Assembly (NCBI RefSeq): GCF_000381085.1
Contig: NZ_KB905901.1
Span: 62,001-126,000, forward strand
Direction of reading: 5' to 3'
Origin: Thiomicrorhabdus arctica DSM 13458
Lineage (GTDB): Bacteria > Pseudomonadota > Gammaproteobacteria > Thiomicrospirales > Thiomicrospiraceae
DNA length: 64,000 nt
The translations under genes and the position numbers were made by a program. Under the pieces are notes generated by a model. It saw only the letters and a list, made by a program, of their open reading frames with translations, ran no database searches and had not been told where the DNA came from. Below are positions 19,632-54,839 of this stretch, one piece after another. How positions within the stretch are numbered: the first letter of the stretch is position 1; the number at the start of each line of letters is the position of its first letter.

Positions 19632-19645
19632 GACCAGGCCTGGTC
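19632..19645. repeat. GACCAGGCCTGGTC palindrome, copy 1
   Basis: A perfect 14-bp palindrome in the 3' region of the sigma operon, between the DUF3379 stop and its terminator. It is one of a family of identical and near-identical sites in this window (see findings). Each arm contains a CCAGG/CCTGG site and the centre is AGGCCT. Confidence 0.8.
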
Positions 19646-19659
19646 GTTTGGTTTTACAT

Positions 19660-19690
19660 AAAAAAGCGGTTCTATTGAACCGCTTTTTTT
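19660..19690 (+). terminator. Terminator of the sigma/DUF3379 operon
   Basis: AAAAAGCGGTTC-TATT-GAACCGCTTTTTTT: a 12-bp stem with a tetraloop and a T run; the A run on the other side makes it potentially active in both directions. Confidence 0.9.
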
Positions 19691-19827
19691 GTATGTGGAA
19701 TTTGAACTTGTTTGTTTTGATAAGGTTAAGGTAACAAAAGAGATTCAATAAATGCGAGGGTAAACAATGAATGTTTTATGGGTTTAAGGTCGTAATATAG
19801 ACAGGATAATCGGGGGAATAAATGACC

Positions 19828-19841
19828 GACCAGGCCTGGTC
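19828..19841. repeat. GACCAGGCCTGGTC palindrome, copy 2
   Basis: A second perfect copy, 183 bp after copy 1 in the same intergenic space, just before a second hairpin terminator. Confidence 0.8.
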
Positions 19842-19857
19842 ATTTTAATTGAGACCT

Positions 19858-19886
19858 AAAAAAAGCGGTTAAAACAACCGCTTTTT
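19858..19886. terminator. Bidirectional terminator between converging operons
   Basis: AAAAAAAGCGGTT-AAAAC-AACCGCTTTTT, an 8-bp GC-containing stem flanked by A and T runs. It can end nrdA transcripts from the minus strand and any read-through from the sigma operon. Stem sequence AGCGGTT is shared with the terminator at 19660. Confidence 0.8.
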
Positions 19887-19898
19887 GAGTATAGAGAA

Positions 19899-20010
19899 CG
19901 TTTTAAAATAAGGGTTTTTGGTCAAGGTCAAGGCGCCTAAGGGCGAAGTTTACCCTGGTAAACGAGTCCTTAGACAACGCAGAGATTGCCCAAAAAAACC
20001 ATTTTAAACG
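19899..20010. repeat. Long intergenic inverted repeat, copy 1 (after nrdA)
   Basis: About 112 bases that fold into one long imperfect hairpin: CGTTTTAAAAT... pairs with ...ATTTTAAACG, GGTTTTTGG with CCAAAAAAACC, and the tip is GTTTACC-CT-GGTAAAC. It begins one base after the nrdA stop. A second copy with high identity in opposite orientation lies at 48492-48585. Such elements can stabilise 3' ends of mRNA or be non-autonomous mobile repeats; which applies is not shown. Confidence 0.78.
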
Positions 20011-20011
20011 T

Positions 20012-22279: not shown

Positions 22280-22400
22280 GGGCAACTTTTTAACCTGTGT
22301 ATAAAGCAAATAAGAGGTGTTTGTTTATAAAGTAATTAATAATTGAGTAAATTCATCAGCTTAGCAGAGCTTCTGCAAAGCTAGTCTAATTGCTTAGAAT

Positions 22401-22478: not shown

Positions 22479-22538
22479 TTTGCTATTCATGCAAGCATGC
22501 TTAATGTTCGGTTTGGGGCGATATAATCCCTCTTTTAC

Positions 22539-24717: not shown

Positions 24718-25140
24718 GTGCCCAATTCTGAAAGTAAAACCAGGCCTGCTTTACAGGGAAAAATGAAGCTTCCTGGCGAGGCTTATTCCCCAAAAATACG
24801 TGCACGTTTTTGGATCGTAGGGGATGCGACCAGTGATGCCGAAGAGCGTTCTGAGGGGTATGTTGGAATAGGGCGTATTGAGTTGCTTGAGAATATTGAG
24901 AGGCTTGGTTCAATGAGTCAGGCAGCTAAAGCCATGGGCATGTCGTATAAGAAAGCCTGGAGGCTCGTGCAGGATCTCAATGGAATGTACGTCGAACCTT
25001 TAGTCATTAAAGAGCATGGCGGCAAATCCGGTGGAGGGACGCAGTTGACAGGTAGAGGCAAAGCTTTGATTTTAGAGTTTAGAGCATTAGAGAAGGAGTT
25101 GATCGTGTTTCTAGAAGCTCAATCACGTACTATTCTTTAA
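24718..25140 (+). CDS. ModE-like winged-helix regulator
   Basis: A 140-residue protein whose residues 50-140 match the DNA-binding domain of ModE: GRIELLENIERLGSMSQAAKAMGMSYKKAWRLVQDLN, then HGGKSGGGTQLTGRGKALI. The molybdate-binding TOBE domains are absent, as in stand-alone ModE N-terminal proteins of other bacteria. The first 45 residues are an unusual polar extension. GTG start after AAAGGAAAG. No mod transport genes are nearby, so the target is unknown. Confidence 0.82.
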   Translation: MPNSESKTRPALQGKMKLPGEAYSPKIRARFWIVGDATSDAEERSEGYVGIGRIELLENIERLGSMSQAAKAMGMSYKKAWRLVQDLNGMYVEPLVIKEHGGKSGGGTQLTGRGKALILEFRALEKELIVFLEAQSRTIL

Positions 25141-26080: not shown

Positions 26081-26330
26081 GTGCCTGAAGGAAGGGGGTA
26101 TGAATAAAGTTCATTATGTTGGGTTGGATCGAGACTATTCGTCACGAAGGTTAAAAATACATTCGAGGCAGGGAGTGGAATTTTTAAATCCATTTTGCTT
26201 GAAAAATAGCTCTTCAAACCTGTGGTGAGTGTGTAGTAGGTGTTGTTGCGTAAGATTGATTTTTAAAGGCATGGTAAGTCATGGTCTAGCTGTTTAGTTC
26301 TATGGGTCTTGAAGGTTTCTATTCAAATTC

Positions 26331-26343
26331 ACCAGGCCTGGTC
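26331..26343. repeat. ACCAGGCCTGGTC palindrome variant
   Basis: Thirteen of fourteen bases of the GACCAGGCCTGGTC site, in the intergenic space 30 bases before the rplM promoter. The rest of 26081-26530 holds no gene I can support. Confidence 0.75.
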
Positions 26344-29108: not shown

Positions 29109-30110
29109 GTGGATAAGATAGATGCCAAGAGCCCAAAATATTGTCAAAACAAACCTCAAAAAGGCTTTGTGTTGATACTCGTGATTGTCGTCGTGGTGAT
29201 TATTGCGACATTGTGGCTTTCGATGAAGCAAGAGCGGCTGATTTCGCTGTTTAAAAGCGATCAGATCGATTATGATTTAGAAGACTTAAAACAGGTTAAA
29301 CAACGATTACTGCAGTTTGCGGTATTGCAGCCGGATATTTATATTACGGATACCTCGGGCAATGTGCAAGGTTCTGCTAAAGTGCCTGCCCCAGGCTATC
29401 TTCCTTGCCCTGATGTCGATGATGGTGCTGGCGGCCCAGCAGACGGTATCGCGGATGGCAGTTGTACCAACCCACTACTTTGGGCAAGCCCTGATACTTC
29501 GGGTTTTCTTCCCGATTCGTTAACGTTTGGTTATGTTCCGGAGTTAATCTCTTCACGTCACTTTTATTTTGCAGAAAAAACCCGCTATTTTTATTTTCTA
29601 GATGAACGTTTCAGTTATGCAAACCCTGGTTATGTAAACGATAATCTAAAGAGATTCGCACCTTTGAACCCTATTAGACTCGAGGGAGATCCTGCCGCTC
29701 AGACGAGCAACTTTGAACCGCGGTCATTTGATCCTGTATTAACGTTAAATGGCGTAACAGGCTATGTGGCTCTGCTTGTAGATGCGGGACAAGATGGATT
29801 GGACGCAGCCAATAAAGATGGTGATCGTCATTTCATCACCCATTTAGACGACCTGAGGGAGGACCCAAATGCCGACAAAATCATTGGTATCAGCTATGTT
29901 GAATGGTTAGCAATGGTTGCACACCGTGTATGTGCGGAACGTAATCGTTTGCAAGGTATTGGTTACGATCTTGATGAAACCGATCCTGTAGATGCAATCG
30001 CAGATTTAGATGATATTGGTGCCCCCTTGCGGCACTGGTACAATGATTACAATTCCGCTACGAATCCTGTAGGCGGCAATTGGCGAACCTGGGGGAGTGT
30101 CTGTCCATGA
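29109..30110 (+). CDS. Pilin-like protein 1 of the pilin locus
   Basis: A 333-residue protein with a pilin-type N terminus, KGFVLILVIVVVVIIATLWLSM (cleavage likely at G/F), but lacking the usual Glu5, as in PilX/GspK-type minor pilins. The mature domain carries GYLPCPD followed by DG repeats to GSC at about 95-120, a module shared with the next two proteins. GTG start at 29109. It overlaps the next gene by four bases (ATGA). Probably part of a dedicated pseudopilus or minor-pilin complex; the exact role is unknown. Confidence 0.7.
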   Translation: MDKIDAKSPKYCQNKPQKGFVLILVIVVVVIIATLWLSMKQERLISLFKSDQIDYDLEDLKQVKQRLLQFAVLQPDIYITDTSGNVQGSAKVPAPGYLPCPDVDDGAGGPADGIADGSCTNPLLWASPDTSGFLPDSLTFGYVPELISSRHFYFAEKTRYFYFLDERFSYANPGYVNDNLKRFAPLNPIRLEGDPAAQTSNFEPRSFDPVLTLNGVTGYVALLVDAGQDGLDAANKDGDRHFITHLDDLREDPNADKIIGISYVEWLAMVAHRVCAERNRLQGIGYDLDETDPVDAIADLDDIGAPLRHWYNDYNSATNPVGGNWRTWGSVCP

Positions 30111-31042
30111 TGTCGGTAAGTACATTCAAGAAAAACGCTTTTCACCCCAATCAAAATGGTTTCTCCTTAATAGAGGTGGCGATTGGTCTGCTTATATTGG
30201 GTATTATTACGACCAGTTTTTATGGCGTTGCCAAGCAGCTGTTTGAAACGGATCACAAGCAAACCGAGCTGGCGAATATGCGCACCTTGCAAAGCTCTAT
30301 CAATATTTATCTGACGGTGAATGCACATCTCCCTTGTCCCGATACGGATAATGATGGCAAAGAAAATCGCTCTGATGGTATCAGTTGTGATGCGCGTGAG
30401 GGGTATTTGCCCTATAGTGATTTAGGGGTAAAGTCAAAAGATGCGTGGGGCAATGAATATTATTATAGAGTCAATTCAAGAGCAGAAAATGCAGGTTATA
30501 TTACGGAAATTTGTCAGTCTGCCAGTGTGCTAGGTAAAGCGGGCGCAGGTCAAAAAACAAACTTATGGTTATGCCCTGAAACGAACTTATATTATTGCAA
30601 GGCGGCTGGAGGTCCAAGTGACTGTAATAGTGTGTGTACCGATACATGTGTTAATACGATTGACCCGCGACCGAATGTCAATGGTGTGGCGAGTGATACC
30701 CCGCCTTTCTTTCATTTAATTACGCCGCCCGTGGGCACTGTTTCAGGTACAGCCAATTTAAATATATATAATGAAGATGCTGCACCCTATGATGGTTCTA
30801 TCGACCCTTTGGGAGGGGGCGTGGTTGCTGTTGCGGTTTCTTGGGGGGCAAACGGTAAAGAGGTTTACCGCTACGATGCAGGACATGTAAGTTGTGGCAG
30901 TGGAACGGCTGCTGAAAATATCAATTGTACAAACAGTCGCGATTTTGTCGATATTCGAACGGGTTCTGGTCGAGATTTTATGACTTGGTTGACGGTGAAC
31001 CAGGCTAAAGTAGCGATCATTGGTCGAGGAGATTTAAAATGA
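30107..31042 (+). CDS. Prepilin-like protein 2 of the pilin locus
   Basis: A 311-residue prepilin: QNGFSLIEVAIGLLILGIITT has the G/F cleavage site and Glu5. The globular part has HLPCPDTDNDG then SDGISC, and PYSDLGVKSKDAWGNEYYYRV, both echoed in its neighbours; it is Cys-rich later (CKAAGG...CNSVCTDTC). The start is the ATG at 30107 in the overlap ATGA with gene 1; the longer frame from 30080 runs through gene 1. Its stop overlaps gene 3. Confidence 0.82.
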   Translation: MMSVSTFKKNAFHPNQNGFSLIEVAIGLLILGIITTSFYGVAKQLFETDHKQTELANMRTLQSSINIYLTVNAHLPCPDTDNDGKENRSDGISCDAREGYLPYSDLGVKSKDAWGNEYYYRVNSRAENAGYITEICQSASVLGKAGAGQKTNLWLCPETNLYYCKAAGGPSDCNSVCTDTCVNTIDPRPNVNGVASDTPPFFHLITPPVGTVSGTANLNIYNEDAAPYDGSIDPLGGGVVAVAVSWGANGKEVYRYDAGHVSCGSGTAAENINCTNSRDFVDIRTGSGRDFMTWLTVNQAKVAIIGRGDLK

Positions 31043-32397
31043 ATGAGTTTCAAAAAAGACAGCAAGGATTTTCTCTGGTGGAGATGGCGATTGTCTTAGT
31101 TATTTTAAGTCTATTGATTGGGGGTGGTTTCAGCACAGTGGGTGCGTACCTAGACAATTCCAAGCAATCTCATACTTTGGGAAGTTTAGAGAATACAAAA
31201 AAAGCCATGTTGAATTACGTTAAGGTTAATTATTACATGCCTTGTCCAGATATCAATAATGATGGTAACGAAGATCGGATTTCAGGTCTGGCTTGCAGTA
31301 GTTCGGTTGGCACAGTGCCATTTAATTCTCTTGGATTAGGGGCCGCCATCGCCAGTGATGATTTTGGCAATGTATTTGCGTATGGCGTTGATACGGGCGT
31401 CACGACGGCCGCCTCAATGATCAATAAAGATTTACCCGTCAGTTATTTTTCGAATACGATGAATAGCAATGGGAATTTTCCTGCATTTAGGTTGGAAACG
31501 CCACCGACTTCTGTGAATCCAAATGTCGCCACAAGCTATACCGTTTGCAAGAAGTCAGCAGCAGTCTGTGATGCGACTGCCAGCAATGTTGAGGTGAATT
31601 CTATTCCCGCCATTATAATGGCCTTTAATGAAAATGGCGCATCAACCACTCTGAATGCATGTAATGCAGAAACAGGAGATGAAGCCGAAAACTGTAACAA
31701 TGATTTGTTGGTCAGGAAAAAGTTTTTTAGCGATGGCGCTTATGATGATCAGTTAGTGACGATTTCAGGGTATGAGATTAAAGAGCAGGTCTTAGATTTA
31801 TTAAATGAAATAAGTTTGACGTTTAATAATGGTATTTATGATGGCTATGATGTCATTATTAGACGAGACGTCAACTCTGCAAATGATTTAAATGTGGGCA
31901 ATGGAGAGGCAAATTCTTTCTATATTGATGAAAACTCGAGCTTGGGCGAGAACGGCGATTTAAATGCCAATGTTCAGCTTAAAGATGGCAATGATAAATT
32001 GTATATCAAAGGCGATGTCGGCTCAGGCGGAAATGCAGATTTGGGGATTGATAATGATACTATCACGGTCAATGGAAATATTTCACTTGGCGGGACAGTG
32101 ACCTTAGGTAAAGGGGATGACTACGCAGTGATAGGCGGCATTATGGAGGGGAGTCTAAATGCGGGTTGGGGCAATGATGAAGTCATTGTAAAAGGGACCG
32201 TTTATGGCACCATTAATATGGATCAAGGAGCTGATGTGCTCTATTTATATGGTAATTTCCCGATTGCAAACATCGATGGTGGCTCTGAGACGGATACCCT
32301 TTATACCACTAAACTTTCGACGGACTTTACACCCACCGAGAAAACGTTATTAGAATCAAAATTTGAAATCATTAATTACGGATATGTTGCGCCTTAA
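31039..32397 (+). CDS. Prepilin-like protein 3 with RTX-like C-terminal repeats
   Basis: A 452-residue protein with prepilin N terminus QQGFSLVEMAIVLVILSLLIGGG (Glu5 present), the shared YMPCPDINNDG...GLAC module (about 72-95) and the PFNSLGL...DDFGNVFAYGV block. From about 300 on it has glycine/aspartate repeats: GNDKLYIKG, GIDNDTITVNG, GKGDDYAVIGG, GWGNDEVIVKG, QGADVLYLYG, GGSETDTLY, a spacing like calcium-binding RTX beta-rolls. A pilin carrying an RTX-like roll is unusual. It may act as a tip adhesin or calcium-stabilised subunit; that is inference. Confidence 0.8.
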   Translation: MNEFQKRQQGFSLVEMAIVLVILSLLIGGGFSTVGAYLDNSKQSHTLGSLENTKKAMLNYVKVNYYMPCPDINNDGNEDRISGLACSSSVGTVPFNSLGLGAAIASDDFGNVFAYGVDTGVTTAASMINKDLPVSYFSNTMNSNGNFPAFRLETPPTSVNPNVATSYTVCKKSAAVCDATASNVEVNSIPAIIMAFNENGASTTLNACNAETGDEAENCNNDLLVRKKFFSDGAYDDQLVTISGYEIKEQVLDLLNEISLTFNNGIYDGYDVIIRRDVNSANDLNVGNGEANSFYIDENSSLGENGDLNANVQLKDGNDKLYIKGDVGSGGNADLGIDNDTITVNGNISLGGTVTLGKGDDYAVIGGIMEGSLNAGWGNDEVIVKGTVYGTINMDQGADVLYLYGNFPIANIDGGSETDTLYTTKLSTDFTPTEKTLLESKFEIINYGYVAP

Positions 32398-32417
32398 CGT
32401 GAAAAATTCTGCTTTGA

Positions 32418-33053
32418 GTGATTATGACCATTAAACCACAGATTCTTCTGGTAGACGATGACCCTGCATTACGTGGCATGCTAAGTTTCTCTTTGGAGTT
32501 AGCAGGGTATAGTGTGACGGAGGCCAGTTCTAGGGTCGTGGCCATTAATGTACTCAAATCACAGCTGTTCCAGGTGGTCTTGTTGGACATGGGGATGCCC
32601 CCCAATGAACATACACCAGAGGAAGGCGTGGCCGTTTTAAGTTGGTTACAGCAACAGCACATAGCCACTAAAGTGATTGTCCTCACAGGTCAACAAGCGG
32701 ATGATACGGCTTATTTGGCCCTAAAGCATGGTGCATTTGATTTTTTAGAAAAACCCACCACCAGTGAAGCGCTTTTAATGTCTGTTAAAAGAGCTTTACT
32801 GTTCTATGCTCAAGAAAATGCCTTAAAGCAAAAAGAAGGTGTTCAAAAATTTCAGTTAGACGCTTCTTTGGGCGAAGGCGTTAAATCCATTCGTAATCAA
32901 GCCGAAGAGAAGTTGGTGCGCCAGGTGTTAGCAGACACTGAATTCAATGTCTATGAAACCGCCCGTCGCTTAGGGCTTAAGCGCGAAAACGTCTATTATT
33001 TAATTAAAAAATATCAATTACAACGCATAGAAAACTCTGATGATTCGCTTTAA
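32418..33053 (+). CDS. Response regulator with Fis-type HTH
   Basis: A 211-residue regulator: receiver domain 1-125 with ILLVDDDPALRG, phospho-acceptor Asp in VVLLDMGMPP, VIVLTGQ and the Lys in FLEKPTT; C-terminal Fis-type helix-turn-helix (VRQVLADTEFNVYETARRLGLKRENVYYLIKKYQL). No AAA domain lies between, so it is not an NtrC-type activator; it resembles RegA/PrrA-like short regulators. The GTG at 32418 or ATG at 32424 is the start. The kinase gene follows after 21 bases, so the two are partners inside the pilin locus. Confidence 0.88.
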   Translation: MIMTIKPQILLVDDDPALRGMLSFSLELAGYSVTEASSRVVAINVLKSQLFQVVLLDMGMPPNEHTPEEGVAVLSWLQQQHIATKVIVLTGQQADDTAYLALKHGAFDFLEKPTTSEALLMSVKRALLFYAQENALKQKEGVQKFQLDASLGEGVKSIRNQAEEKLVRQVLADTEFNVYETARRLGLKRENVYYLIKKYQLQRIENSDDSL

Positions 33054-33074
33054 TGTTAGCGTCAAGGCATCGAG

Positions 33075-34163
33075 ATGAACGGGTTTGTCGCTGAATGGGC
33101 GGGGCTCATCTTTGTCGTCATTGGGCTCTCACTTTTTTTTACGGCCTTTTACTTTCGACATCAATCCAAAAAACTGAGTCACGCTTTAAGTACGCTTTAT
33201 CACCTCAATCAAAGTGTCAATTTAGATGCCCTGGATTTTTTTGACCAGGCCTGGCCGATTTTGAAAAATGTAGGTTGTTTGCAGATGAACGCCAATATTG
33301 AATGGTTTGGAGAGCACAAAAGCATCCAATTTGGTCTTGATCAGCCATCTAAAACCCATAAACAGACCTTTAAAGTCGTTAGAGAAGATATGCGGTTTGA
33401 ATTTGTGATCTATTTGGAGCGTCAGGCAAATGCATCAGAAAGTCTGGCAGGTCTGGTCATTAAAACCTTTATCAATGTGTTAGAGCAGGATTTAGTGCTG
33501 AAGCAGGCTGAAATTCTCACGTCTCAAAAGCGGTTAGAACGCTATCAGCTTTTTGTGCAACATGAAATCAAGAACATTGCCCAGTTCATTCAGTTGCTCA
33601 GTGAACAGGTGCAAACGGTAAGTGAACCGTTAGCCCAACAGCGATTATTTGAACGGCTGAAGCAAACATTACCCATTATGGCGCAACGAGCACAAAAAAC
33701 GGTGCAGCAAATGCAACAACCGCTTGCTGAGAGTTTTCAAAACAGAAGTTATGAGCTAAAAGCCCTGATAGAAGAAACGTTACGAATGTATGATTTGCAG
33801 GCCAGTGTCATTGGTGACGCCATCACACAATTACCGCGTCCATTAGTGCTTGAGGTCTTCAAAAATGTACTTGGAAATTTTAGAGATCATCAAATTTGTG
33901 AAGCACCTTTAGCCATTGAAGTTTTGACAGATGATATCAATAAATGGGTCGTCGTTCAGATTAGTAGTGCCTGTTTAGAAGATCAAAGCAAGATACGTTC
34001 AGAGCGTTTATTTGAACCTTTTTGGACCACCAGTGAAAGTGGAATGGGCTTGGGTCTATTTCTCGCTAGGGAACTGCTAAAACAACACAGTGGGCAGATT
34101 GAGTTCACAAAAACAAACAATGCCTTTGGGTTTGCGATCACTTTACCAGGCCTATTGGAATAG
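33075..34163 (+). CDS. Membrane-anchored sensor histidine kinase
   Basis: A 362-residue kinase with one N-terminal TM segment (AGLIFVVIGLSLFFTAFYF), a central region of about 100 residues of unknown fold, a dimerisation helix with His in FVQHEIKNIAQFIQLL, and an ATPase domain whose G-box reads SGMGLGLFLAREL. The N-box is poorly conserved (FKNVLGNFRDH). Partner of the upstream regulator. The coding sequence holds a copy of the palindrome (GACCAGGCCTGG at 33243), which here encodes DQAW. Confidence 0.88.
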   Translation: MNGFVAEWAGLIFVVIGLSLFFTAFYFRHQSKKLSHALSTLYHLNQSVNLDALDFFDQAWPILKNVGCLQMNANIEWFGEHKSIQFGLDQPSKTHKQTFKVVREDMRFEFVIYLERQANASESLAGLVIKTFINVLEQDLVLKQAEILTSQKRLERYQLFVQHEIKNIAQFIQLLSEQVQTVSEPLAQQRLFERLKQTLPIMAQRAQKTVQQMQQPLAESFQNRSYELKALIEETLRMYDLQASVIGDAITQLPRPLVLEVFKNVLGNFRDHQICEAPLAIEVLTDDINKWVVVQISSACLEDQSKIRSERLFEPFWTTSESGMGLGLFLARELLKQHSGQIEFTKTNNAFGFAITLPGLLE

Positions 34164-34343
34164 ATTTCCAGGTGTTAACAGCGTTTGGTTTGATGAGTCT
34201 GATTTGCAGATTAATCTAAATTCAATGTCTCCTAAGTAGTTGTGCGAGTGTAAGGAAAATTTACTCTATTTTAAAAGTTTGATGCCCTATATTATGAAGA
34301 CAACACCAAAGAAGTGTTGGTTAAATAATCAAAGGAAGATGTC

Positions 34344-34916
34344 ATGGAAATTAAAAACGTACAAAAACAAAAAGGTTTCACTTTAGTCGAAATCGCGATC
34401 GTATTGGTTATCATCGGTTTATTATTGGGGGGGGTATTGAAAGGTCAAGAGTTGATTACCAACGCTAAAATCAAAGCAGTGACTTCAGATTTTGATAATA
34501 TCAGTGCCGCTTATTATGCGTACCAAGATCGTACAGGGAATATTGCTGGGGATGGAACCAACGCCACTCCTCGAGTTTATGATGCAGTGATTACTAATCC
34601 CCTATTTTGGTTTGACTTAAGAACAGAAGGCTTTATTTCTGGTGCTCCAGTTGATGGGGTTGCAGATGTTGGGCCGACGCATTCTTTAGATGGGATTTGG
34701 TCAGCCGTTCCTGGTGCAGCTACAGGCGCATTGTTCACTAAAAATCATATCTGTGCTGCTGGTGTTACAGATGCTTATGCTCAAGGTATGGATAAAAAGA
34801 TGGATGATGGTAATGCACTTACTGGGACAATTCGTTCTGGAACCGACGCTGCGCCTACAACTCTAGCTGCTTATACCACAACGGGTGTATTAGTTACTGT
34901 ATGTAAAGAGTTATAA
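34344..34916 (+). CDS. Prepilin-type protein 4
   Basis: A 190-residue prepilin with the classic KGFTLVEIAIVLVIIGLLLGGVLKGQELI N terminus (G/F site, Glu5), a YQDRTGNIAGDGTN segment typical of short type II/IV prepilins and a two-cysteine C-terminal region (HICAAGV...TVCKEL). It lacks the PCPD module of the three upstream proteins. Strong ribosome site (AAGGAAG). A terminator follows, so it may be the major subunit of this locus. Confidence 0.88.
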   Translation: MEIKNVQKQKGFTLVEIAIVLVIIGLLLGGVLKGQELITNAKIKAVTSDFDNISAAYYAYQDRTGNIAGDGTNATPRVYDAVITNPLFWFDLRTEGFISGAPVDGVADVGPTHSLDGIWSAVPGAATGALFTKNHICAAGVTDAYAQGMDKKMDDGNALTGTIRSGTDAAPTTLAAYTTTGVLVTVCKEL

Positions 34917-37751: not shown

Positions 37752-38228
37752 ATGCTTGATATTGAATTGCAGTGGGCCATTGACGAATTACCATTACCCA
37801 CACAACGCCAGTGTGAACAGTGGGTTTCTGCTGCATTGGTTGATAGACAAAAAAACCAAGCCGTTGAAATGACGATTCGAATTGTTGATTTGCAAGAAAG
37901 TCAGCAGTTGAATGGTGATTATCGTAATAAAGACAAGCCAACTAATGTACTCTCTTTCGAATTTGAACAACCACCAGGCCTGGCCGATTTAGGCGAAGCT
38001 TTACCCTATTTAGGGGATTTAGCCATCTGTGCAGAAGTGGTTGCGTTAGAGGCAGCCGCTCAACATAAAACGGTAGAATCTCACTGGGCACATATGATTG
38101 TGCACGGTACCTTGCATTTACAAGGTTACGACCATATAAATGATGATGATGCCGACATGATGGAAGGCTTAGAAATTAAAATTATGCAGGGGTTAGGTTT
38201 TGCTAATCCCTACGAATCCGCTTCATAA
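37752..38228 (+). CDS. ybeY: Endoribonuclease YbeY (rRNA maturation factor)
   Basis: A 158-residue zinc enzyme with the signature HMIVHGTLHLQGYDH holding three His ligands, and TNVLSFEFEQP. It acts in 16S rRNA 3' processing and 70S quality control. Carries a palindrome copy (ACCAGGCCTGG at 37973) read as PPGLA. Confidence 0.97.
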   Translation: MLDIELQWAIDELPLPTQRQCEQWVSAALVDRQKNQAVEMTIRIVDLQESQQLNGDYRNKDKPTNVLSFEFEQPPGLADLGEALPYLGDLAICAEVVALEAAAQHKTVESHWAHMIVHGTLHLQGYDHINDDDADMMEGLEIKIMQGLGFANPYESAS

Positions 38229-39228: not shown

Positions 39229-40785
39229 ATGCAGAGGATTGTACATTTGAAAACCGTTAAAAACCCATTTTTAAGCGGACTTATTAATCTATTTATTCCT
39301 CAAAAAAAACAGGCTATTGCTTTTGGACTTGGACTATTAGGCGTATTGTCTTTTGCGCCGTTAAATTTTGCACCCGTGATCATTGCCTCTTTGACTGGTC
39401 TATTTTTGCTGTGGTTAGAAGCCGAAAACCGTTTTGAAGGGTTTAAAATCGGTTTGTGGTTTGGCCTCGGATTTTTCGGCTTTGGCGTCAGTTGGTTGTT
39501 CTCAAGTATTTATGTCTATTCGGGTGTGCTGTTACCTTTAGCCATTTTGATGACCTTCAGTTTTATCTTATTCCTTTCCTTGTTTATCGCGTTCAGTGGT
39601 TGGGTCGCACAGTATTTTAAAGACAGTAAACGACCAGGCCTGGTCTTAACCGTTCTCTTTCCAGCGGTTTGGGTGGGCGGTGAACTAGTGCGTTCATCTT
39701 TGCTGGGCGGTTACCCTTTTTTATTGGTGGGAAATAGTCATATCGAAACCTGGTTGGCGGGGTATGCACCCGTATTTGGGGTGTGGGGCATGTCGTGGGC
39801 GATTGCCATGTCCGCGGGTTTGTTGTTGTGGTTATTTAAAAAACGTTCGTGGTTTGTGGCCAGTATCACACTCTGTTTGCTGTGGTCAGTAGGCGGTTTA
39901 TTGCAGGATGTCGAGTGGGTGAAACCCGTTGATAAGCCCGTCGATATTGCGTTATTACAAGGTAATATTCCACAGGAAAAGAAGTGGCTGCAGTCTGAAT
40001 TTATGCCGACTTTGAAACGATATGTTTCGATGACCAAAAGTAATATGGATGCGGATGTCATTGTCTGGCCGGAGACAGCTGTTCCTGCTTATTACGATGT
40101 GGTCGAACGAGGTGCTTTAAATTCTTTTATTAAAGATGCTCAGTTATTAAATACGGATATTCTTGTGGGTGCCATCGCAGGTGATCGCGGTTCAGCAAAT
40201 TATTACAATGCTTTAATTAATCTGCATCGCCCTACGGACCGTTATTACAAGTCTCATCTTGTACCCTTTAGTGAATTTTTTCCCTTGAACGATGCATTCG
40301 CTTACGTTAGTTCGCTGTTTAACATTCCTTATGCGACTTTTACAGCCGGTGCTGACGATCAAGCGCCCCTTATGTTAGGTGGGCAGTTGGCAGGGTTAAG
40401 TATCTGTTATGAAACCGCGTTTGGCGAAGAGATGGCGAGACAGTTGCCGGAGGCAAAATACCTTATTACCGTCAGTAATGACGCCTGGTTTGCCCATACC
40501 TTTGAACCCGCACAGCAACTACAAGAAGTGCAAATGCGAGCGTTGGAATTAGGACGTGAAATTGCGCGTAGTACCAACACCGGTTTCAGTGCGATTATTG
40601 ATATTAAGGGTAAAATAAAACAGCAGATCCCAGCCTATGAAATAGGCGTATTGAGAGGTAAAGTGCAGCCTTATGAAGGGTTAACGCTCTATGCCGAATG
40701 GGGTAAATTGCCAGTGTTGTTTCTATTGTTCAGTCTGTTTGCCTTTATGTTAGCCAAACGCTATTTCCTAAGCGGACGACTATAG
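39229..40785 (+). CDS. lnt: Apolipoprotein N-acyltransferase
   Basis: A 518-residue inner-membrane enzyme that adds the third acyl chain to lipoproteins. About eight N-terminal TM segments precede a nitrilase-like domain with the triad Glu (VWPETAVPAYY), Lys (YYKSHLVPFSEFFP) and Cys (LSICYETAFGE). ATG at 39229 (a TTG at 39247 is also in frame). A perfect palindrome copy (39632) lies in the gene and reads RPGLV. Confidence 0.96.
   Translation: MQRIVHLKTVKNPFLSGLINLFIPQKKQAIAFGLGLLGVLSFAPLNFAPVIIASLTGLFLLWLEAENRFEGFKIGLWFGLGFFGFGVSWLFSSIYVYSGVLLPLAILMTFSFILFLSLFIAFSGWVAQYFKDSKRPGLVLTVLFPAVWVGGELVRSSLLGGYPFLLVGNSHIETWLAGYAPVFGVWGMSWAIAMSAGLLLWLFKKRSWFVASITLCLLWSVGGLLQDVEWVKPVDKPVDIALLQGNIPQEKKWLQSEFMPTLKRYVSMTKSNMDADVIVWPETAVPAYYDVVERGALNSFIKDAQLLNTDILVGAIAGDRGSANYYNALINLHRPTDRYYKSHLVPFSEFFPLNDAFAYVSSLFNIPYATFTAGADDQAPLMLGGQLAGLSICYETAFGEEMARQLPEAKYLITVSNDAWFAHTFEPAQQLQEVQMRALELGREIARSTNTGFSAIIDIKGKIKQQIPAYEIGVLRGKVQPYEGLTLYAEWGKLPVLFLLFSLFAFMLAKRYFLSGRL
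39632..39645. repeat. GACCAGGCCTGGTC palindrome inside lnt
   Basis: A perfect 14-bp copy read in the frame CGA-CCA-GGC-CTG-GTC. Different frame use from the copies in lptE and the histidine kinase (GAC-CAG-GCC-TGG). Confidence 0.8.
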
Positions 40786-41316: not shown

Positions 41317-43842
<2,526 letters not shown>

Positions 43843-43931: not shown

Positions 43932-44570
43932 ATGAAAACAAGTGTTTTTAAAAATGACCAGGCCTGGTCAATTCGTTTCTGGCGCCTTATGTCTATCACA
44001 CTGTTGATGAGTCTATTGGTTATGATGACGGCTGGATTAAACGGTTGTGGTTTTCATTTGCGTGGTTTAGACCGTATAGGTTACATGCAATTTAAAACCG
44101 TTAAATTGCAAAGTCTGGCAGGCGTTCGTCCCGAAATAGAACAAGCGATGCGTTCGCAACTCGCTCAGTCGGGCGTTCAGTTGGTTGACTCCTTGGCCGC
44201 CGCGGAATTACAGATCATATTGCAGCCGACCCTTTATAAAGTAAATCGAACGGCCTATTCTGGATTAGGTGATACCACGGCAGAATTTATGAGCATGGAG
44301 CAGCCCTTTTCAGCCATTCTTGTTGCGACGGATGAGACGATTGTGAGCAGCAGTGCTCAAGCTTATCGTGATCGTCAAATTGACACCGCAGCCTTATTAG
44401 CCGCGAATAGTGAGTTGGGGAGCATTCATCGTGAAATGGCTGAAGATTTGGTGATGAATATTATGGAGCGAATCAATCGAGCGATGTTAAAAGCATCACC
44501 GGGCCCGAAAATTGTTCCAGTGGAAAGCACTCTTCCAACCATTACGCCAACCACTGTGCCAACTGATTAA
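43932..44570 (+). CDS. lptE: LPS-assembly lipoprotein LptE
   Basis: A 212-residue lipoprotein with a long signal region ending at the lipobox LNGC, then GFHLRGL typical of LptE. It plugs the LptD outer-membrane barrel. Start taken as ATG 43932; a longer GTG frame (43866) and a shorter ATG (43989) exist. The signal extension includes DQAW, encoded by a perfect palindrome copy at 43956. Usual order leuS-lptE-holA. Confidence 0.9.
   Translation: MKTSVFKNDQAWSIRFWRLMSITLLMSLLVMMTAGLNGCGFHLRGLDRIGYMQFKTVKLQSLAGVRPEIEQAMRSQLAQSGVQLVDSLAAAELQIILQPTLYKVNRTAYSGLGDTTAEFMSMEQPFSAILVATDETIVSSSAQAYRDRQIDTAALLAANSELGSIHREMAEDLVMNIMERINRAMLKASPGPKIVPVESTLPTITPTTVPTD
43956..43969. repeat. GACCAGGCCTGGTC palindrome inside lptE start region
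   Basis: A perfect 14-bp copy 24 bases after the likely lptE start, in the stretch before the signal peptide core. Confidence 0.8.
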
Positions 44571-44579: not shown

Positions 44580-45611
44580 ATGATTGTCGCGAGTGCGTTT
44601 CTCAATCAACTGAAATCGACTTCATTTACCGTACAACCGGTTTATTTGTTGTATGGTGAAGAGCCGCTCTTTTTGCGTGACTGTTATGATGGCTTGCGGA
44701 AAACATTAAACAGCCAGGGGTATCTAAGTGGCGATGTTTACGATATGGATGCTAACTCTGATTGGCAGTCACTGCAAATGGAGACCCAGGCGGGTTCACT
44801 GTTTTCAGATACACGGATGATTTTGGTGAATATACCCAAAGGTTCGCCAGGTCGAGAGGGGGGGAAGTTTATTCAGGACTGGTGTCAATTTGTGCAGACA
44901 TTACCACCTGAAATCGTGATTGTATTTTTATGTGAACGTTTGGATAGCCGACAGCTTAAGTCAAAATGGGTCATTGCCATAGAGTCAGCAGGCCTGGTGG
45001 TACAAGCCAAGCCTGTGCCGATAAGTGCTTTGCCAAGTTGGTGTCAGCAAAAATCTCAAAGTTTGGATTTAACCTTGGAGCCAGAGGCGGCCAACTTATT
45101 AGCCGAACGGGTCGAAGGTAATTTATTAGCCGCCGATCAAGAATTACTCAAGTTGTCGCTGTTATTACCAGCGGGTAGCTGTATTAATGCTCAGACCATT
45201 TTAGACAATGTCGTTGATCAAGCGCATTATCAACTGTTTGCTTTGTCATCTGCCGTACTGAATGGTCAGGTTGCCTACAGTTTGCAGATGTTGATGCGTT
45301 TACGCCAAGAAGGTATTGAAGCGCCGATTATTCTCTGGTTGCTGTCAAAGGAGTTACGTCAGCTCATTGCCTTGGCGCAACTTTCACAACAGATTTCTAT
45401 GGGGCAAGCCTTTAAGCAGTGTGGTATTTGGCAGTCGAAGCAGTCAGAATATGGCAGTGCCTTGAGCCGCCAGGGGTTGATGTCTTGGCAGGCGTTATTA
45501 AAATCCGCTTTAAAGGTCGATTTAATGATCAAAGGCATTCAGCCGACCATGAGTCCTGATGAGGTTTGGTTAGGTTTGTCCGAACTGGTTTCTAAAATGG
45601 CACGCTCTTAA
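44580..45611 (+). CDS. holA: DNA polymerase III delta subunit
   Basis: A 343-residue clamp-loader subunit. N-terminal AAA-like domain [21 protein letters not shown], then [35 protein letters not shown] and the C-terminal collar domain. It opens the beta clamp. Nine bases after lptE. Contains a palindrome variant CAGGCCTGGT (44989). Confidence 0.95.
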
Positions 45612-48488: not shown

Positions 48489-48491
48489 AAA

Positions 48492-48652: not shown

Positions 48653-48666
48653 GACCAGGCCTGGTC
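48653..48666. repeat. GACCAGGCCTGGTC palindrome between rlmH and the GST gene
   Basis: A perfect 14-bp copy between two convergent genes, 43 bases from the end of the glutathionyl-hydroquinone reductase gene. Confidence 0.8.
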
Positions 48667-49787: not shown

Positions 49788-49801
49788 AACCAGGCCTGGT
49801 T
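49788..49801. repeat. AACCAGGCCTGGTT palindrome variant
   Basis: A perfect palindrome differing from the main form only at the outermost pair, between the pirin and hydroquinone-reductase genes. Confidence 0.75.
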
Positions 49802-49815: not shown

Positions 49816-50652
49816 CTAAAATAGACCTTGTCTAAAGTCTTCAAAGGCCTGTTTTATTTCCGCTTGGGTATTCATGACAAATGGACCATGCCGTGCAATC
49901 GGTTCATTAATCGGTAGGGCTGAGCCGACAATAAAACGGCTGGCTTTGCTTTTTGCTTGTAGGCTTATGGTCTCACCTGCCGTCAAAATCGCTAAACTAC
50001 CCTGGCCGAGCGTGCGTTTTTGCTCACCGACGCTTAACTCGCCATCAATAACATACATAAAGCTATTATCTGCGGCATTTACCGTTTGTGACCAGGTCTG
50101 GTCAGGTTTGAGGTGAACGTCCATAAACAGAGGGTGCACAAAGTTATTGACCACGGGGCCAACGGTGCCTTGATCTGTCTTGCCGACAATAACCCTTGTT
50201 TGACTACCGTCTGCGGCGGTTTCAACTGGAACCGACTCGGGCTCATAATCTTGATAACCCGCGGGCGTCATTTTGGCGTAGCTGGGAAGGTTGATCCACA
50301 GCTGGAATCCACGCATTTCGCCTGATACTTGTTCGGGCATTTCTGAGTGGACGATGCCTTTACCGGCCGTCATCCACTGAATGCCACCTGGTTTAAGCAG
50401 GCCACTATTACCATGATTATCTTCGTGGCGCATATGTCCCGCGATCATATAAGTCATGGTTTCAAACCCCCGATGTGGATGGGATGGAAACCCAGAAATA
50501 TAATCATCTGGGTTTTCAGTGCCAAAATAATCCAGCATTAAAAATGGATCGAGCATATCAATTTCGGGCGTGCCAATCAGCCTGGTCATTTTTACGCCTG
50601 CACCATCTGATGTGGGCATTCCTTTGGAAATCTGTTGTATTTCTTTAATCAT
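49816..50652 (-). CDS. Pirin family protein
   Basis: A 278-residue bicupin: LDPFLMLDYFGTENPDDYISGFPSHPHRGFETMTYMIAG, HEDNHGNSGLLKPGGIQWMTAGKGIVHSEMP. His and Glu of these motifs bind the metal. Relatives are quercetinases or redox co-regulators. Overlaps the DoxX gene by four bases. A palindrome variant GACCAGGTCTGGTC (50090) lies inside. Confidence 0.93.
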   Translation of the reverse strand: MIKEIQQISKGMPTSDGAGVKMTRLIGTPEIDMLDPFLMLDYFGTENPDDYISGFPSHPHRGFETMTYMIAGHMRHEDNHGNSGLLKPGGIQWMTAGKGIVHSEMPEQVSGEMRGFQLWINLPSYAKMTPAGYQDYEPESVPVETAADGSQTRVIVGKTDQGTVGPVVNNFVHPLFMDVHLKPDQTWSQTVNAADNSFMYVIDGELSVGEQKRTLGQGSLAILTAGETISLQAKSKASRFIVGSALPINEPIARHGPFVMNTQAEIKQAFEDFRQGLF

Positions 50653-51193: not shown

Positions 51194-52096
51194 GTGGGGC
51201 AGTTAGAAAACATACAGATTTTCATTCGTATCGTAGAAGCGGGTGGTATTGGCAAAGCTGCAGAACAGATGGATTTAGCGAAATCAGCGGTCAGTCGAAG
51301 ATTGGCAGAGCTTGAATCCAAGTTAGGTACCCAATTATTGCAGCGAACAACACGTCGTTTAAACCTAACGGAGGCAGGTAGGTTGTATTATGAGCGTGCG
51401 ATTAAGGTGTTAGATGCGGTTGATGAGATGAACGGTCTCTCCGAAATGGAAGGGGGGGAGATTGAGGGCGTTTTGCGCGTGTCTGTACCGATGTCTTTCG
51501 GATTAAGTCATCTTTCATCGGCCTTGGAGGCCTTTGCATGCCTGCACCCTAAGCTCCACCTACAGATTGATTTTTCGGATCGTCAAGTCGATATGATTGC
51601 AGAGGGGTTAGACCTGGCATTTCGTATTTCTCAATTACAAAACTCCTCTATTCAGGCGCGAAAAATAGTGCCTATTCAGGTTGCTCTGCTGGCAAGTCCT
51701 GAATACCTTAAACAATATGGGGTGCCTAAACATCATGATGATTTACAAAATCACCTACAGTTACGTTATGGGGGGTATGAAGATCATTGGCATCTAGTCG
51801 ACCCAGAGGGGGGTAAGGTTAGTATTCATTTATCGGGGCAAATGAGTGCTAATAATGGCGATTTTTTATGCCAAATGGCAATCAATGGGCATGGTCTGGT
51901 CATGCTACCTACTTTTATCGCTTGGCAAGCCCTACAGTCAGGTGCGTTAGTGAAGGTGTTACCGGACTATCAAATACCCAGCATAGCTGCATATGCGATT
52001 TATCCCCAAAATCGTTTTTTACCCAAGAAGTCGAGGGTGTTGATTGATTTTTTAGTCGACCATTTTAAAGATAACATCTATTGGGATAAACATTAA
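51194..52096 (+). CDS. LysR-family transcription regulator
   Basis: A 300-residue LTTR: HTH in ENIQIFIRIVEAGGIGKAAEQMDLAKSAVSRRLAELESKLGTQLLQRTTRRLNLTEAG and a periplasmic-binding-like effector domain. GTG start. Divergent from doxX-pirin across 137 bp, the classic layout for an LTTR controlling its neighbour, probably in response to quinone or electrophile stress. Confidence 0.93.
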   Translation: MGQLENIQIFIRIVEAGGIGKAAEQMDLAKSAVSRRLAELESKLGTQLLQRTTRRLNLTEAGRLYYERAIKVLDAVDEMNGLSEMEGGEIEGVLRVSVPMSFGLSHLSSALEAFACLHPKLHLQIDFSDRQVDMIAEGLDLAFRISQLQNSSIQARKIVPIQVALLASPEYLKQYGVPKHHDDLQNHLQLRYGGYEDHWHLVDPEGGKVSIHLSGQMSANNGDFLCQMAINGHGLVMLPTFIAWQALQSGALVKVLPDYQIPSIAAYAIYPQNRFLPKKSRVLIDFLVDHFKDNIYWDKH

Positions 52097-52300
52097 TAAC
52101 TTGGTTTTGAACGTTTTTAAGGTAGATATTGTTGATTTATTTGACATGGCTTAGATAGATGTGGATAATCCTACGATTGCTTTCAGGCCATTTGTGGTTT
52201 TGTTATCTTCGTAGTGGTCTACGTTGAGGCATCGAGAGTTGTGTTAATAGAGGTCTACGGATCGGTTAATGCGTAAAACCTAATTATTGGAGATTTAAAA

Positions 52301-52564
52301 ATGGCTAATACAGCTCAAGCAACCAAACGCGCACGCATTGCAGAAAAAACTCGTATCCTTAACGTTGCACAACGTTCGCATATGCGTACTGTCGTGAAAA
52401 AAGTATTAGTGGCCGTTGCTGCTGGTGATAAAGAGGCTGCAAATACTGCTTTCCGTGCCGCTCAGTCTAAGTTAGACGGTTTGGCGCGTAAAGGCATTAT
52501 TACTAAGAACAAAGCGGCACGTTCTAAGAGCCGTATCAACGCTCGTATTAAAGCGATGGCGTAA
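52301..52564 (+). CDS. rpsT: 30S ribosomal protein S20
   Basis: An 87-residue S20 with ATKRARIAEKTRILNVAQRSHMRTVVKKV and GIITKNKAARSKSRINARIKA. Own gene followed by a terminator, as in most bacteria. Confidence 0.97.
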   Translation: MANTAQATKRARIAEKTRILNVAQRSHMRTVVKKVLVAVAAGDKEAANTAFRAAQSKLDGLARKGIITKNKAARSKSRINARIKAMA

Positions 52565-52592
52565 TTTTATTTAGTTTTTAACTAAGTAAAAT

Positions 52593-52620
52593 AAAAAACC
52601 GGGTTTATCCCGGTTTTTTT
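52593..52620 (+). terminator. Terminator of rpsT
   Basis: AAAAAACCGGG-TTTAT-CCCGGTTTTTTT, strong stem and T run. Confidence 0.92.
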
Positions 52621-52657
52621 GTATCTTAATTTTATCAATTGAGTCTAAGGAGTTTAC

Positions 52658-52966
52658 ATGACATTTTTACGTTTAATGGCCTTACTAGAAGGCACGTCAT
52701 TATTGCTTTTATTATGTGTGGCGATGCCGCTTAAATATCAATTCGGCATGCCGGAAGCGGTGAGTTTGGTGGGGCGTTTGCACGGTGGTCTGTTTGTTGC
52801 CTTTAACCTGGTGCTGTTTTATAACGTCTTTAAAGGCCGGATCACTGGAGGACAGGGTTTTATTGGCTCGCTTGCTTCATTTGTGCCTTTTGGAACCTTT
52901 ATCTATAAAGCCACTGTCTTAAAAAAATCAGCAACTTTGACTAACGTTTCAAATAACCTGGCATAA
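52658..52966 (+). CDS. DUF3817 small membrane protein
   Basis: A 102-residue protein with about three TM helices: LRLMALLEGTSLLLLLCVAMPLKY, GRLHGGLFVAFNLVLFYNVF and FIGSLASFVPFGTFIYKA, the DUF3817 (YdzA-like) pattern. Function unknown. Stands between rpsT and murJ. Confidence 0.88.
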   Translation: MTFLRLMALLEGTSLLLLLCVAMPLKYQFGMPEAVSLVGRLHGGLFVAFNLVLFYNVFKGRITGGQGFIGSLASFVPFGTFIYKATVLKKSATLTNVSNNLA

Positions 52967-53069
52967 ACTGAAAGCTTGGTTTAAGTTGATGGTTGAAGAT
53001 GACATGGATAAGTTGAGACAATCGTAACCGCCATGGTTATGGGTCTGGTACAATTTCAACAGTTTAAGT

Positions 53070-54641
53070 TTGTCCCGTAAATCAATAACTAACCTGAGTG
53101 AGAACCCCCATTTGAAACGTATCATTAAAGCAACGGTCACTGTCGGAGGAATGACCATGGTCTCGCGTATTTTGGGATTTGTGCGCGATATGATTATTGC
53201 CCGCTACTTTGGTGCAACGGCTGGTGCAGATGCGTTTTTGGTCGCGTTTAAAATTCCTAATTTTTTCCGTCGCTTATTCGCAGAAGGGGCTTTTTCACAA
53301 GCCTTTGTGCCGATACTCTCTGAGGTCAAAGAGAAGCAGGGCAAGGCGGCCGTTAAACATTTAATCGATGCCTTGAGTTATCGGTTAGGGGGAATTTTAT
53401 TGTTGGTGACGGCAACAGGTGTTTTTGGTTCTTCACTGTGGATGATGGTCTTTGCACCGGGTTTTATGGATGAGCCTGAGAAATTTAATCTCGCCGCCGA
53501 TATGTTATCGATTACCTTTCCTTATCTATTATTGATCTCCTTGGTGGCATTTTCGTCGGCCATTATGAATACCTATAATCAATTTGCGGTACCGGCCTTT
53601 ACACCAGTATTCTTAAATTTAGTGCTGATCAGTTTTGCTGTATGGGTTTCCCCCTTGTTAGATGTGCCTGTCATGGCATTGGCATGGGGTGTTTTAGCCG
53701 CAGGTGTGGTGCAGCTCTTATTTCATCTCCCTTATTTATACCGTTTAGGATTGCTACCGCACCCAACTCGTCAAGCAGATCCCGGAGTCAGTGACATTAA
53801 GCGTTTAATGATTCCGGCCCTATTTGGGGTGTCCGTTGCACAGATTAACCTATTGGTCGATACCGTTTTAGCGTCGTTTTTAATGACGGGTTCCGTCTCT
53901 TGGTTGTATTATTCCGATCGTTTAATGGAGTTTCCATTAGGGGTGTTTGGCGTGGCCTTAGCGACAGTCGTCTTACCAGGCCTGTCCAAAAAAGCCGCTA
54001 ATGAAAACTGGGATGGATTTCAAAAGGATATCGATTCGGCTTTGCGTTTAGTTTTGATTATTGGCGTGCCAGCGACCTTGGGATTGCTGTTATTAGCTAA
54101 ACCGCTCATCATTACATTATTCTATTATGGCGAATTTACGGCATTCGACGTCAGCATGTCAAGTGCGAGTCTGATGGCCTACTCATTTGGGCTACTGGGT
54201 TTTATCTTGGTTAAGATTCTCGCGCCCGCATTCTATGCTCGTAAAGATATGAAAACACCGGTTAAAGTGGCCATTATTGCTCTGACAACCAATATGATTA
54301 TGAACCTGATTTTAATCGGTCCTTTTGCCCATGTAGGCTTAGCGGCTGCGACGAGTATCTCTGCATTTATGAACGCCGGATTATTGTATTGGTATTTGAC
54401 AACACAAAATGTGTTTACGCCTTTGGCGGGCTGGGGTAGGTTGATTATTCAAGTGCTATTGGCCAATGTGATGTTAGTGATTGCCATTCTGCTCATAAAT
54501 CCTGATTTAGGGCATTGGTTAAGTTTCAGTGGTTGGGAACGCCTTACTTGGTTGTTGGGTCTCGTAGTGAGTGTCATGGTGGTCTATTTTGTGACCTTAA
54601 TGCTGGTGGGTTTAAACCCTAAAAGGTTATTAAAAAGCTAA
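53070..54641 (+). CDS. murJ: Lipid II flippase MurJ
   Basis: A 523-residue, 14-helix MATE-like flippase exporting peptidoglycan lipid II. Marker motifs: MTMVSRILGFVRDMIIARYFGATAGADAFLVAFKIPNFFRRLFAEGAFSQAFVP and YYSDRLMEFPLGVFGVALATVVLP. The start is unclear: TTG at 53070 or, closer to family N termini, TTG at 53112. rpsT-murJ-ribF-ileS-lspA order is conserved. Holds a palindrome variant (53975). Confidence 0.96.
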   Translation: MSRKSITNLSENPHLKRIIKATVTVGGMTMVSRILGFVRDMIIARYFGATAGADAFLVAFKIPNFFRRLFAEGAFSQAFVPILSEVKEKQGKAAVKHLIDALSYRLGGILLLVTATGVFGSSLWMMVFAPGFMDEPEKFNLAADMLSITFPYLLLISLVAFSSAIMNTYNQFAVPAFTPVFLNLVLISFAVWVSPLLDVPVMALAWGVLAAGVVQLLFHLPYLYRLGLLPHPTRQADPGVSDIKRLMIPALFGVSVAQINLLVDTVLASFLMTGSVSWLYYSDRLMEFPLGVFGVALATVVLPGLSKKAANENWDGFQKDIDSALRLVLIIGVPATLGLLLLAKPLIITLFYYGEFTAFDVSMSSASLMAYSFGLLGFILVKILAPAFYARKDMKTPVKVAIIALTTNMIMNLILIGPFAHVGLAAATSISAFMNAGLLYWYLTTQNVFTPLAGWGRLIIQVLLANVMLVIAILLINPDLGHWLSFSGWERLTWLLGLVVSVMVVYFVTLMLVGLNPKRLLKS

Positions 54642-54669
54642 GGTTGATGGGTTAATCATCCTTTTTTTT
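54642..54669 (+). terminator. Terminator of murJ
   Basis: GGTTGAT-GGGTTA-ATCATCC with one mismatch, followed by eight T, directly after the murJ stop. A palindrome variant (CAGGCCTGGT) lies at 54701-54710 between this and ribF. Confidence 0.7.
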
Positions 54670-54839
54670 GAGTGAAATTCAGACTCTATTTTAAGATGAA
54701 CAGGCCTGGTAAGTTTAAAAGGACGCTTGTTCTGACTATTTTAAACCGTTAAATCATACACTTTAAAAGATTATCAGACTCTTAAGGCTTTGAATCGGCT
54801 ATAATTTAAGGCTTATTTTTTTAGTTAGTATTGGCGTTA

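Follow-up and report, generated by a model that had tools for sequence, protein, structure and literature searches.

A dispersed palindrome in Thiomicrorhabdus arctica as a candidate DNA-uptake sequence with lineage dialects

A 14-bp palindrome, GACCAGGCCTGGTC, recurs inside and between genes in a 64,000-nucleotide stretch of the Thiomicrorhabdus arctica DSM 13458 genome (the window; C3:62001-126000). By analogy with the uptake signal sequence (USS) and the DNA uptake sequence (DUS), which the cited portions of PMC3630211, PMC12616744 and PMC1626085 describe in Pasteurellaceae and Neisseriaceae, this palindrome is probably a DNA-uptake recognition sequence in its local dialect. The initial annotation of the window had named three possible roles, namely a binding site for a nucleoid or segregation protein, a restriction-modification or epigenetic target, and a symmetrical uptake-like mark. 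The last of these is the best supported because the word has lineage-specific dialects, occurs at high density, is biased toward gene 3' ends, is flanked by helically phased AT-rich segments and appears to arise without insertion.

The palindrome and its placement in the genome

The genome (G000) comprises 2,552,883 bases in 6 contigs, of which C1 is the main one; relatives are labelled G001 onward, and L numbers denote sequence stretches or loci. Across it, 112 exact copies of the 14-mer are present versus none of the reversed control, and the 8-bp core CAGGCCTG occurs 522 times versus 4, an excess far above control. Density, placement and frame were counted in an unbiased sample of 464 kb, made up of 20 stretches (L085-L104) and the window. 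Stretches L153-L172, picked around known sites, were excluded from these counts and were still used in profiles, flanks and alignments. In the unbiased sample, palindromic copies of 8, 10, 12 and 14 bp number 89, 64, 53 and 16, with base-composition expectations of 3.3, 0.14 and 0.012 for the first three lengths, and 72 sites lie within two mismatches of the 14-mer, whereas palindromes shuffled without change of composition give a mean of 0.83 and at most 7. The core is often embedded in AAAnYGACCAGGCCTGGTCRnTTT. Its profile, AAAnYG-ACCAGGCCTGGT-CRnTTT, places A-tracts on both sides, 6-8 bp upstream of the core, with G at position -3 and mainly T (or C) at position -4. The dinucleotide AC is present in both halves of 132 of 190 cores, in one half of 44 and in neither half of 14, and little information is found in the flanks more than about 8 bp from the core. 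The unit, originally taken to be a 14-mer, is thus better described as an 8-bp core within a graded palindrome of about 24 bp, an extension that, to judge from its profile, is protein-site-like and not one fixed string.

Beyond the palindrome, the A+T content oscillates with a period of about 11 bp at distances of 9-70 bp from 299 cores (both G000 samples and G019). The power at 11 bp is 0.947 versus a null mean of 0.036, and none of 300 position-shifted nulls equals it. This phasing is strongest at the non-coding sites of G000 (2.79 versus 0.10) and is also seen in G019 (p = 0.01; coding sites alone, 0.035) and in G030 and G043 combined (p = 0.01; 0.075 across all periods). One of four control palindromes (TTGATCAA) gives p = 0.035 at 11 bp, and none falls below 0.05 over all periods.

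The sites are concentrated 3' of genes, which bears out the gene-edge bias that had been put forward for checking. Based on gene calls from our own simple caller, the 89 cores of the unbiased sample are distributed among coding sequence (47; 75.7 expected), convergent gaps (19; 2.0), tandem gaps (16; 7.5), divergent gaps (0; 2.0) and stretch edges (7; 1.7). G019, G030, G043, G053 and G021 likewise have more sites than expected in convergent and tandem gaps. Divergent gaps in these other samples hold 1-3 sites each, which matches expectation for G019, G030 and G053 and exceeds it for the small sets of G043 and G021 (2 each versus 0.4). Coding copies from the unbiased sample and G019 fall into frames 0, 1 and 2 in a ratio of 53/53/9 (n = 115). 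The idea that the selective pressure acts on DNA and not on protein therefore holds in that no single peptide accounts for the coding copies, with the qualification that frame 2 is disfavoured. Along C1, the 77 listed exact sites are uniformly spread (Kolmogorov-Smirnov p = 0.87), and neither a gap nor an excess of sites is seen near the GC-skew switch at about 600-700 kb, so the check for an origin-terminus bias gave none on this contig.

Relatives, dialects and the origin of sites

The core was counted in 66 genomes, 42 from the same family and 24 from other families of the class, several of which are incomplete drafts for which the counts are lower bounds. Twenty of the 42 family genomes are motif-rich, with 236-1173 cores each, and the remaining 22 have 3-74; the reversed control occurs 0-36 times in the family genomes. 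Outside the family, counts range from 0 to 222, the top value comparing with 91 for its reversed control. The density is one core per 2.3-4.9 kb in 18 of the 20 motif-rich genomes, which span four genera of the family (g1, g3, g5 and g6). On a LeuS tree, where the G000 protein (88% to that of Thiomicrorhabdus sp. Milos-T2) groups in or beside Thiomicrorhabdus, motif richness is patchy within the genus: G000, G007 and G006 have 522, 653 and 236 cores, and a clade neighbouring the rich genomes (G012, G017, G023 and G029) has 3-5 copies.

Samples of palindrome-free genomes were screened for alternative words, and two were found. Dialect 2, AAAATCTGCCAGGYTGGG, is present in G053 and in L007 (Hydrogenovibrio sp. 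JE_KL2). Its core, CTGCCAGGYTGGG, has 215 copies in G053, 225 in G055 and 253 in G057, none of which contains an exact palindromic 14-mer; among the 113 genomes counted, the remaining 110 have two copies each at most. At the places listed, G053 has C at the variable base of this word, and G055 and G057 have T. Dialect 3, AAACTCAACAGGCCGGGT, was found in G021, and its core, AACAGGCCGGG, has 511 copies in G021 and 300 in G004; of the 66 genomes counted, none of the remaining 64 has more than 12. The five genomes with dialect 2 or 3 contain 0 or 1 exact palindromic 14-mer each, and the three related words are mutually exclusive among genomes. All three share a common layout, consisting of an A-tract, 5 bp, CAGG and then CCTGGT, YTGGGG or CCGGGT, and dialects 2 and 3 are asymmetric and non-palindromic. 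The words may replace one another in function. Pairs of sites within 100 bp number 2 for dialect 2, both inverted (0.22 expected), and 5 for dialect 3, 4 of them inverted (1.25 expected). In four palindromic genomes, such pairs number 3 (0.99 expected), 4 (4.16), 1 (0.86) and 1 (0.40), and the enrichment of inverted pairs is confined to the non-palindromic dialects.

Positional conservation, proposed as a check on the palindrome, is clear in the sister species; with the genome-wide excess, the palindrome thus withstands both tests that the initial annotation had set against it. In a 97.8-kb alignment of G000 and G007 (82.8% identity; gapped cells set aside), 28 of 30 G000 cores are identical in place in G007 and 28 of 35 G007 cores are identical in place in G000, versus 19-22% for shuffled 8-mers. 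Against motif-poor relatives (72% identity), a gap lies within 15 bp in 4 of 48 site cells, compared with 435 of 2959 control cells (14.7%). The core is kept in 0 of 44 ungapped cells (control, 9%), a result that is partly expected, as these relatives were chosen as motif-poor. The cells behind both counts are not independent, as some sites repeat across relatives. Because the sites are conserved in the sister species and show no excess of gaps relative to motif-poor relatives, they look to have been made and lost by substitution and retained where the system was retained.

The same screen returned other repeats. An apparent replacement word in G020, CTAAGAAA, is part of a clustered regularly interspaced short palindromic repeat (CRISPR) array and was rejected. 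At about 9926-15689 of L113 (G020:C1), a large CRISPR-like array has nearly 100 repeats that recur about every 60 bp. The 10-mers with high counts in samples of G055 and G025 seem to come from local repeat arrays.

Copies and other features in the window

The five perfect copies first reported in the window were each confirmed at their exact coordinates, and the near copies were found where reported or 1-3 bp away (Table 1). Twelve places in the window lie within two mismatches of the 14-mer, compared with a shuffle mean of 0.08 and with no shuffle of 100 reaching 12. The window holds 15 cores in total; three near copies differ from the 14-mer at more than two positions yet contain the core. 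Similar copies occur in several motif-rich congeners near the place that matches the core in the predicted holA.

Table 1 Copies of the palindrome and a pilin-like cluster in the window (ORF, open reading frame)
Feature	Position	Strand	Location or content
Perfect 14-mer GACCAGGCCTGGTC	19632..19645	.	Gap between convergent ORFs, 20 bp past ORF end
Perfect 14-mer	19828..19841	.	Convergent gap shared with the 19632 copy
CAGGCCTG core, ACC at left, >2 mismatches to 14-mer	24738..24751	.	Inside ORF 24718-25140
1-mismatch copy	26330..26343	.	Between listed ORFs
1-mismatch copy	33243..33256	.	Inside histidine kinase-like gene
2-mismatch copy	37972..37985	.	Inside ORF 37752-38228
Perfect 14-mer	39632..39645	.	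Inside ORF 39229-40785 (lnt in the initial annotation)
2-mismatch copy	43298..43311	.	Inside leuS
Perfect 14-mer	43956..43969	.	114 bp past leuS ORF end (lptE in the initial annotation)
CAGGCCTG core, >2 mismatches to 14-mer	44986..44999	.	Inside ORF 44580-45611 (holA in the initial annotation)
Perfect 14-mer	48653..48666	.	Convergent gap
AACCAGGCCTGGTT, 2 mismatches but perfect palindrome	49788..49801	.	Between two ORFs
GACCAGGTCTGGTC, 1 central mismatch, hence without CAGGCCTG core	50090..50103	.	ORF 49816-50652
CAGGCCTG core, >2 mismatches to 14-mer	53974..53987	.	Inside ORF 53070-54641
2-mismatch copy	54698..54711	.	Between ORFs, 3' of one
CAGGCCTG core, absent from the initial list	59575..59588	.	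Inside ORF 59452-60765
Type IV pilin-like cluster	29109..34916	+	N_methyl prepilin signals in ORFs 30080-31042, 31039-32397 and 34344-34916

The first 19,600 positions had been described as free of copies, and indeed neither the core nor even AGGCCT is found before 19632. A phage-type integrase gene lies in this region at 4033-5268. The Poisson probability of zero cores in 1-19600 is 0.018, for one post-hoc case; as such a single case, the gap at 1-19631 fits a depletion of the motif in acquired DNA.

Two further observations concern genes of the window. A RiPP (ribosomally synthesized and post-translationally modified peptide)-modification enzyme of the MbnB/TglH/ChrH type adjoins a DUF2063 protein at 13349-15047. 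In several congeners (for example G020, G027 and G014; loci L142-L151), the LeuS match is interrupted near query residue 596, and leuS in the same congeners has an open frame about 28-54 residues longer than in G000, suggesting an insertion or a divergent segment.

Explanations weighed and known systems compared

The features of USS and DUS that can be read from sequence are found here, machinery and receptor aside, and from them we infer uptake, a receptor, bending and uptake-driven accumulation, as follows. The competence apparatus would include a DNA receptor at the cell surface that binds a CAGG-centred half-site together with the A-tract 5 bp upstream, and AT-rich segments one helical turn apart would aid DNA bending at the entry pore. 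DNA bearing the word would be preferentially imported and recombined, leading the word to accumulate, and uptake bias and recombination would maintain it where it is tolerated, for instance at gene 3' ends and in permissive codons. The word in the species of G000 would consist of two half-sites arranged symmetrically; the receptor preference would have shifted in two other lineages, and the genome words would have followed, giving rise to the dialects. A tentative extension, to which we give rather less credence, is that these words form a third independent family of uptake words, with an ancestral symmetric palindrome whose two strands a paired receptor would read alike and a symmetry that was broken at least twice into directional dialects. 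If true, such a family would offer a natural series for following the co-evolution of receptor and genome.

The sites could instead bind a dimeric protein of the cytoplasm that bends DNA and is nucleoid-associated or chromosome-organising, and could be lost or replaced as this protein changes specificity or vanishes. This rival would agree with the symmetry and the A-tracts of the motif, which spans about 24 bp, and with the helically phased flanks, the strong positional conservation and the even spread of sites. We consider it unlikely, as the word is lost or replaced genome-wide within one genus, two lineages have asymmetric words, 47 of the 89 cores in the G000 sample are coding, the sites favour gene 3' ends with none in divergent gaps (only 2.0 expected), and no origin or terminus pattern is seen. 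The uniform spread on C1, combined with the loss or replacement of the word in one genus, specifically disfavours a site for origin- or terminus-linked segregation or nucleoid occlusion, so that what survives of the proposed nucleoid or segregation role is a general nucleoid protein. The methylation role fares worse. In Elhai's model for the highly iterated palindrome HIP1, a word is made and kept by a methyltransferase together with mismatch repair; the present word is like HIP1 (cited part of PMC4390886) in that its 8-bp core is GC-rich and palindromic, is extended palindromically and is very strongly over-represented. In the 39 genomes common to the motif, PF00145 and PF01555 surveys (thresholds of 1e-10 and 1e-8 for the latter two), 6 of the 18 motif-rich genomes have PF00145 and 4 have PF01555, compared with 8 and 6 of the 21 motif-poor ones (Fisher p 1.0 for PF00145 and 0.73 for PF01555). 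Ten of the 18 motif-rich genomes, G000 included, have neither family; other methyltransferase families were not searched. Since two replacement words are also non-palindromic, and the A-tracts and phased flanks seem to extend past a usual methyltransferase target, a HIP-like origin is very improbable.

Bidirectional intrinsic terminators, in which a hairpin with A/T tracts is selected at gene 3' ends, would explain the strong excess in convergent gaps and the longer perfect stem extension at non-coding than at coding sites (3.62 versus 1.77 bp). As the main function, this is scarcely credible: the share of coding cores is too large, close relatives do without the word, and neither one set sequence nor words specific to a lineage are required for termination. 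A secondary role as terminators is more likely, which the longer non-coding stems fit, by analogy with what the cited portion of PMC3630211 describes for DUS pairs. A mobile or repetitive extragenic palindromic (REP)-like repeat, a Chi-like recombination signal or some other role would be in keeping with a dispersed high-copy word, and we regard this group of explanations, too, as most doubtful. A mobile repeat is contradicted by the scarcity of flank information beyond about 8 bp and by gaps that are no commoner at sites than elsewhere. Chi is orientation-dependent and skewed to one strand per replichore, and a palindrome lacks the orientation that Chi needs.

Several results weigh against the uptake reading itself, and the machinery counts on both sides. 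ComEC (PF03772) is present in 55 of 59 family genomes (at C1:347030 in G000) and in 18 of 18 motif-rich genomes examined, in favour of uptake, but it does not discriminate, being found also in 19 of 21 motif-poor genomes, and no match was found in the dialect-3 draft G004. PilT-family genes are present in 50 of the 59 genomes, with two in G000, and were not found in the other nine (G001, G010, G034, G035, G042, G054, G058, G059 and G060). All of these except G001 and G034 bear the palindrome; G035 is complete and has 840 cores, and G059 has 45 exact 14-mers. This absence is not decisive, because Pasteurellaceae take up DNA without PilT. For PilQ, no match above the model's cut-off was found in any of the 59 genomes, and a sub-threshold match in G000 sits near pilin-like genes that resemble type II secretion pseudopilins. 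The pilin-like cluster in the window, in which a response regulator and a histidine kinase-like gene lie between pilin ORFs, possibly encodes parts of a pilus. Its last pilin (34344-34916) is 41% identical between G000 and G007, which share a dialect, versus 94% for the neighbouring miaB product; this fast-evolving pilin is probably surface-located. As a dialect-linked receptor the cluster is not supported, no dialect link being seen among the loci compared.

The words themselves add further points on this side. The 11-bp phasing is weak at coding sites of G000 (0.42 versus 0.09, p = 0.01), marginal for dialect 3 (p 0.055 and 0.045) and absent for dialect 2, where the peak on the upstream side is at 9 bp. 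Neither G019 (4 versus 4.16) nor G030 shows an excess of close pairs. At least four motif-poor genomes were sampled without a replacement word being found (G003, G025, G020 and G014; samples of 80, 80, 100 and 60 kb), though most have ComEC. For genes with a dialect-2 or dialect-3 site at the 3' end, the 3' end of the orthologue carries a palindromic site in 9 of 27 cases versus 15 of 116 for genes without a dialect site (one-sided p = 0.015; each dialect set alone, 0.054 and 0.15), with thresholds that were set once, but after the leuS case was known, and with leuS counted in both sets; leaving leuS out gives 7 of 25 (p = 0.063). At the leuS 3' end, which gives the clearest case, the palindrome lies at +31 (L008), +108 (G007) and +120 (G000), dialect 2 at +33 (L007) and dialect 3 at +50 (G021), so the offsets differ. 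When dialect sites are aligned column by column to palindromic sites, 2 of 13 cells are positive. Together, these comparisons are only suggestive of an in-place swap of one dialect for another.

We know of no palindromic uptake sequence, and this one, if true, would be the first known to us. No report of natural transformation for this family was found in the literature searched. Full-text listings, with most subscription journals outside their coverage, gave no report of these words or of uptake sequences for Thiomicrospira, Hydrogenovibrio, Thiomicrorhabdus or Piscirickettsiaceae. The longer word forms gave no match on comparable bacteria, by title, and matches to CAGGCCTG alone, among those listed, look unrelated by title. 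If the uptake reading is true, a third family of uptake words would exist, in this case in sulfur oxidisers that are free-living, and close relatives would include some that lack the word, some that keep it and some in which the dialect has changed, at least twice in all. The origin and change of uptake specificity would then become directly testable in non-pathogens. The word could also provide a genetic handle for chemolithoautotrophs and a tag to spot recently acquired islands in their genomes.

Among known systems, the sites of Noc, SlmA and MatP are dispersed chromosomal palindromes of about 12-14 bp, which they share with the word described here. Those sites are biased to the origin or terminus and number in the tens, whereas here the distribution is uniform on C1 and the copies number in the hundreds. 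According to the cited part of PMC4390886, cyanobacterial HIP1 and the alternate HIPs are similar in being over-represented 8-bp palindromes with palindromic extensions and lineage replacement words; alternate HIPs accompany cognate methyltransferases, whereas here neither family tested tracks the word and the replacements are non-palindromic. The DUS of Neisseriaceae, in the account given in the portion of PMC3630211 cited, has related species-specific dialects, inverted pairs at terminators and common intragenic copies, as here. In contrast, the DUS word GCCGTCTGAA is non-palindromic and without flanking motifs in the cited passage of PMC1626085, and its receptor is ComP, with none known for the palindrome. 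The Pasteurellaceae USS (Hin and Apl types), as presented in the same part of PMC1626085, resembles the palindrome in its short core in high excess (9 bp in USS), AT-rich flank segments about one helical turn apart, non-insertional origin and two related words split by lineage. It differs in its core, which is non-palindromic (cited parts of PMC1626085 and PMC12616744), in AT segments that are one-sided, compared with A-tracts on both sides of the main word here, and in its density of about one per kb, compared with the lower range given above for 18 of the 20 motif-rich genomes (PMC1626085, same part). USS belongs to a different family and is an unrelated word.

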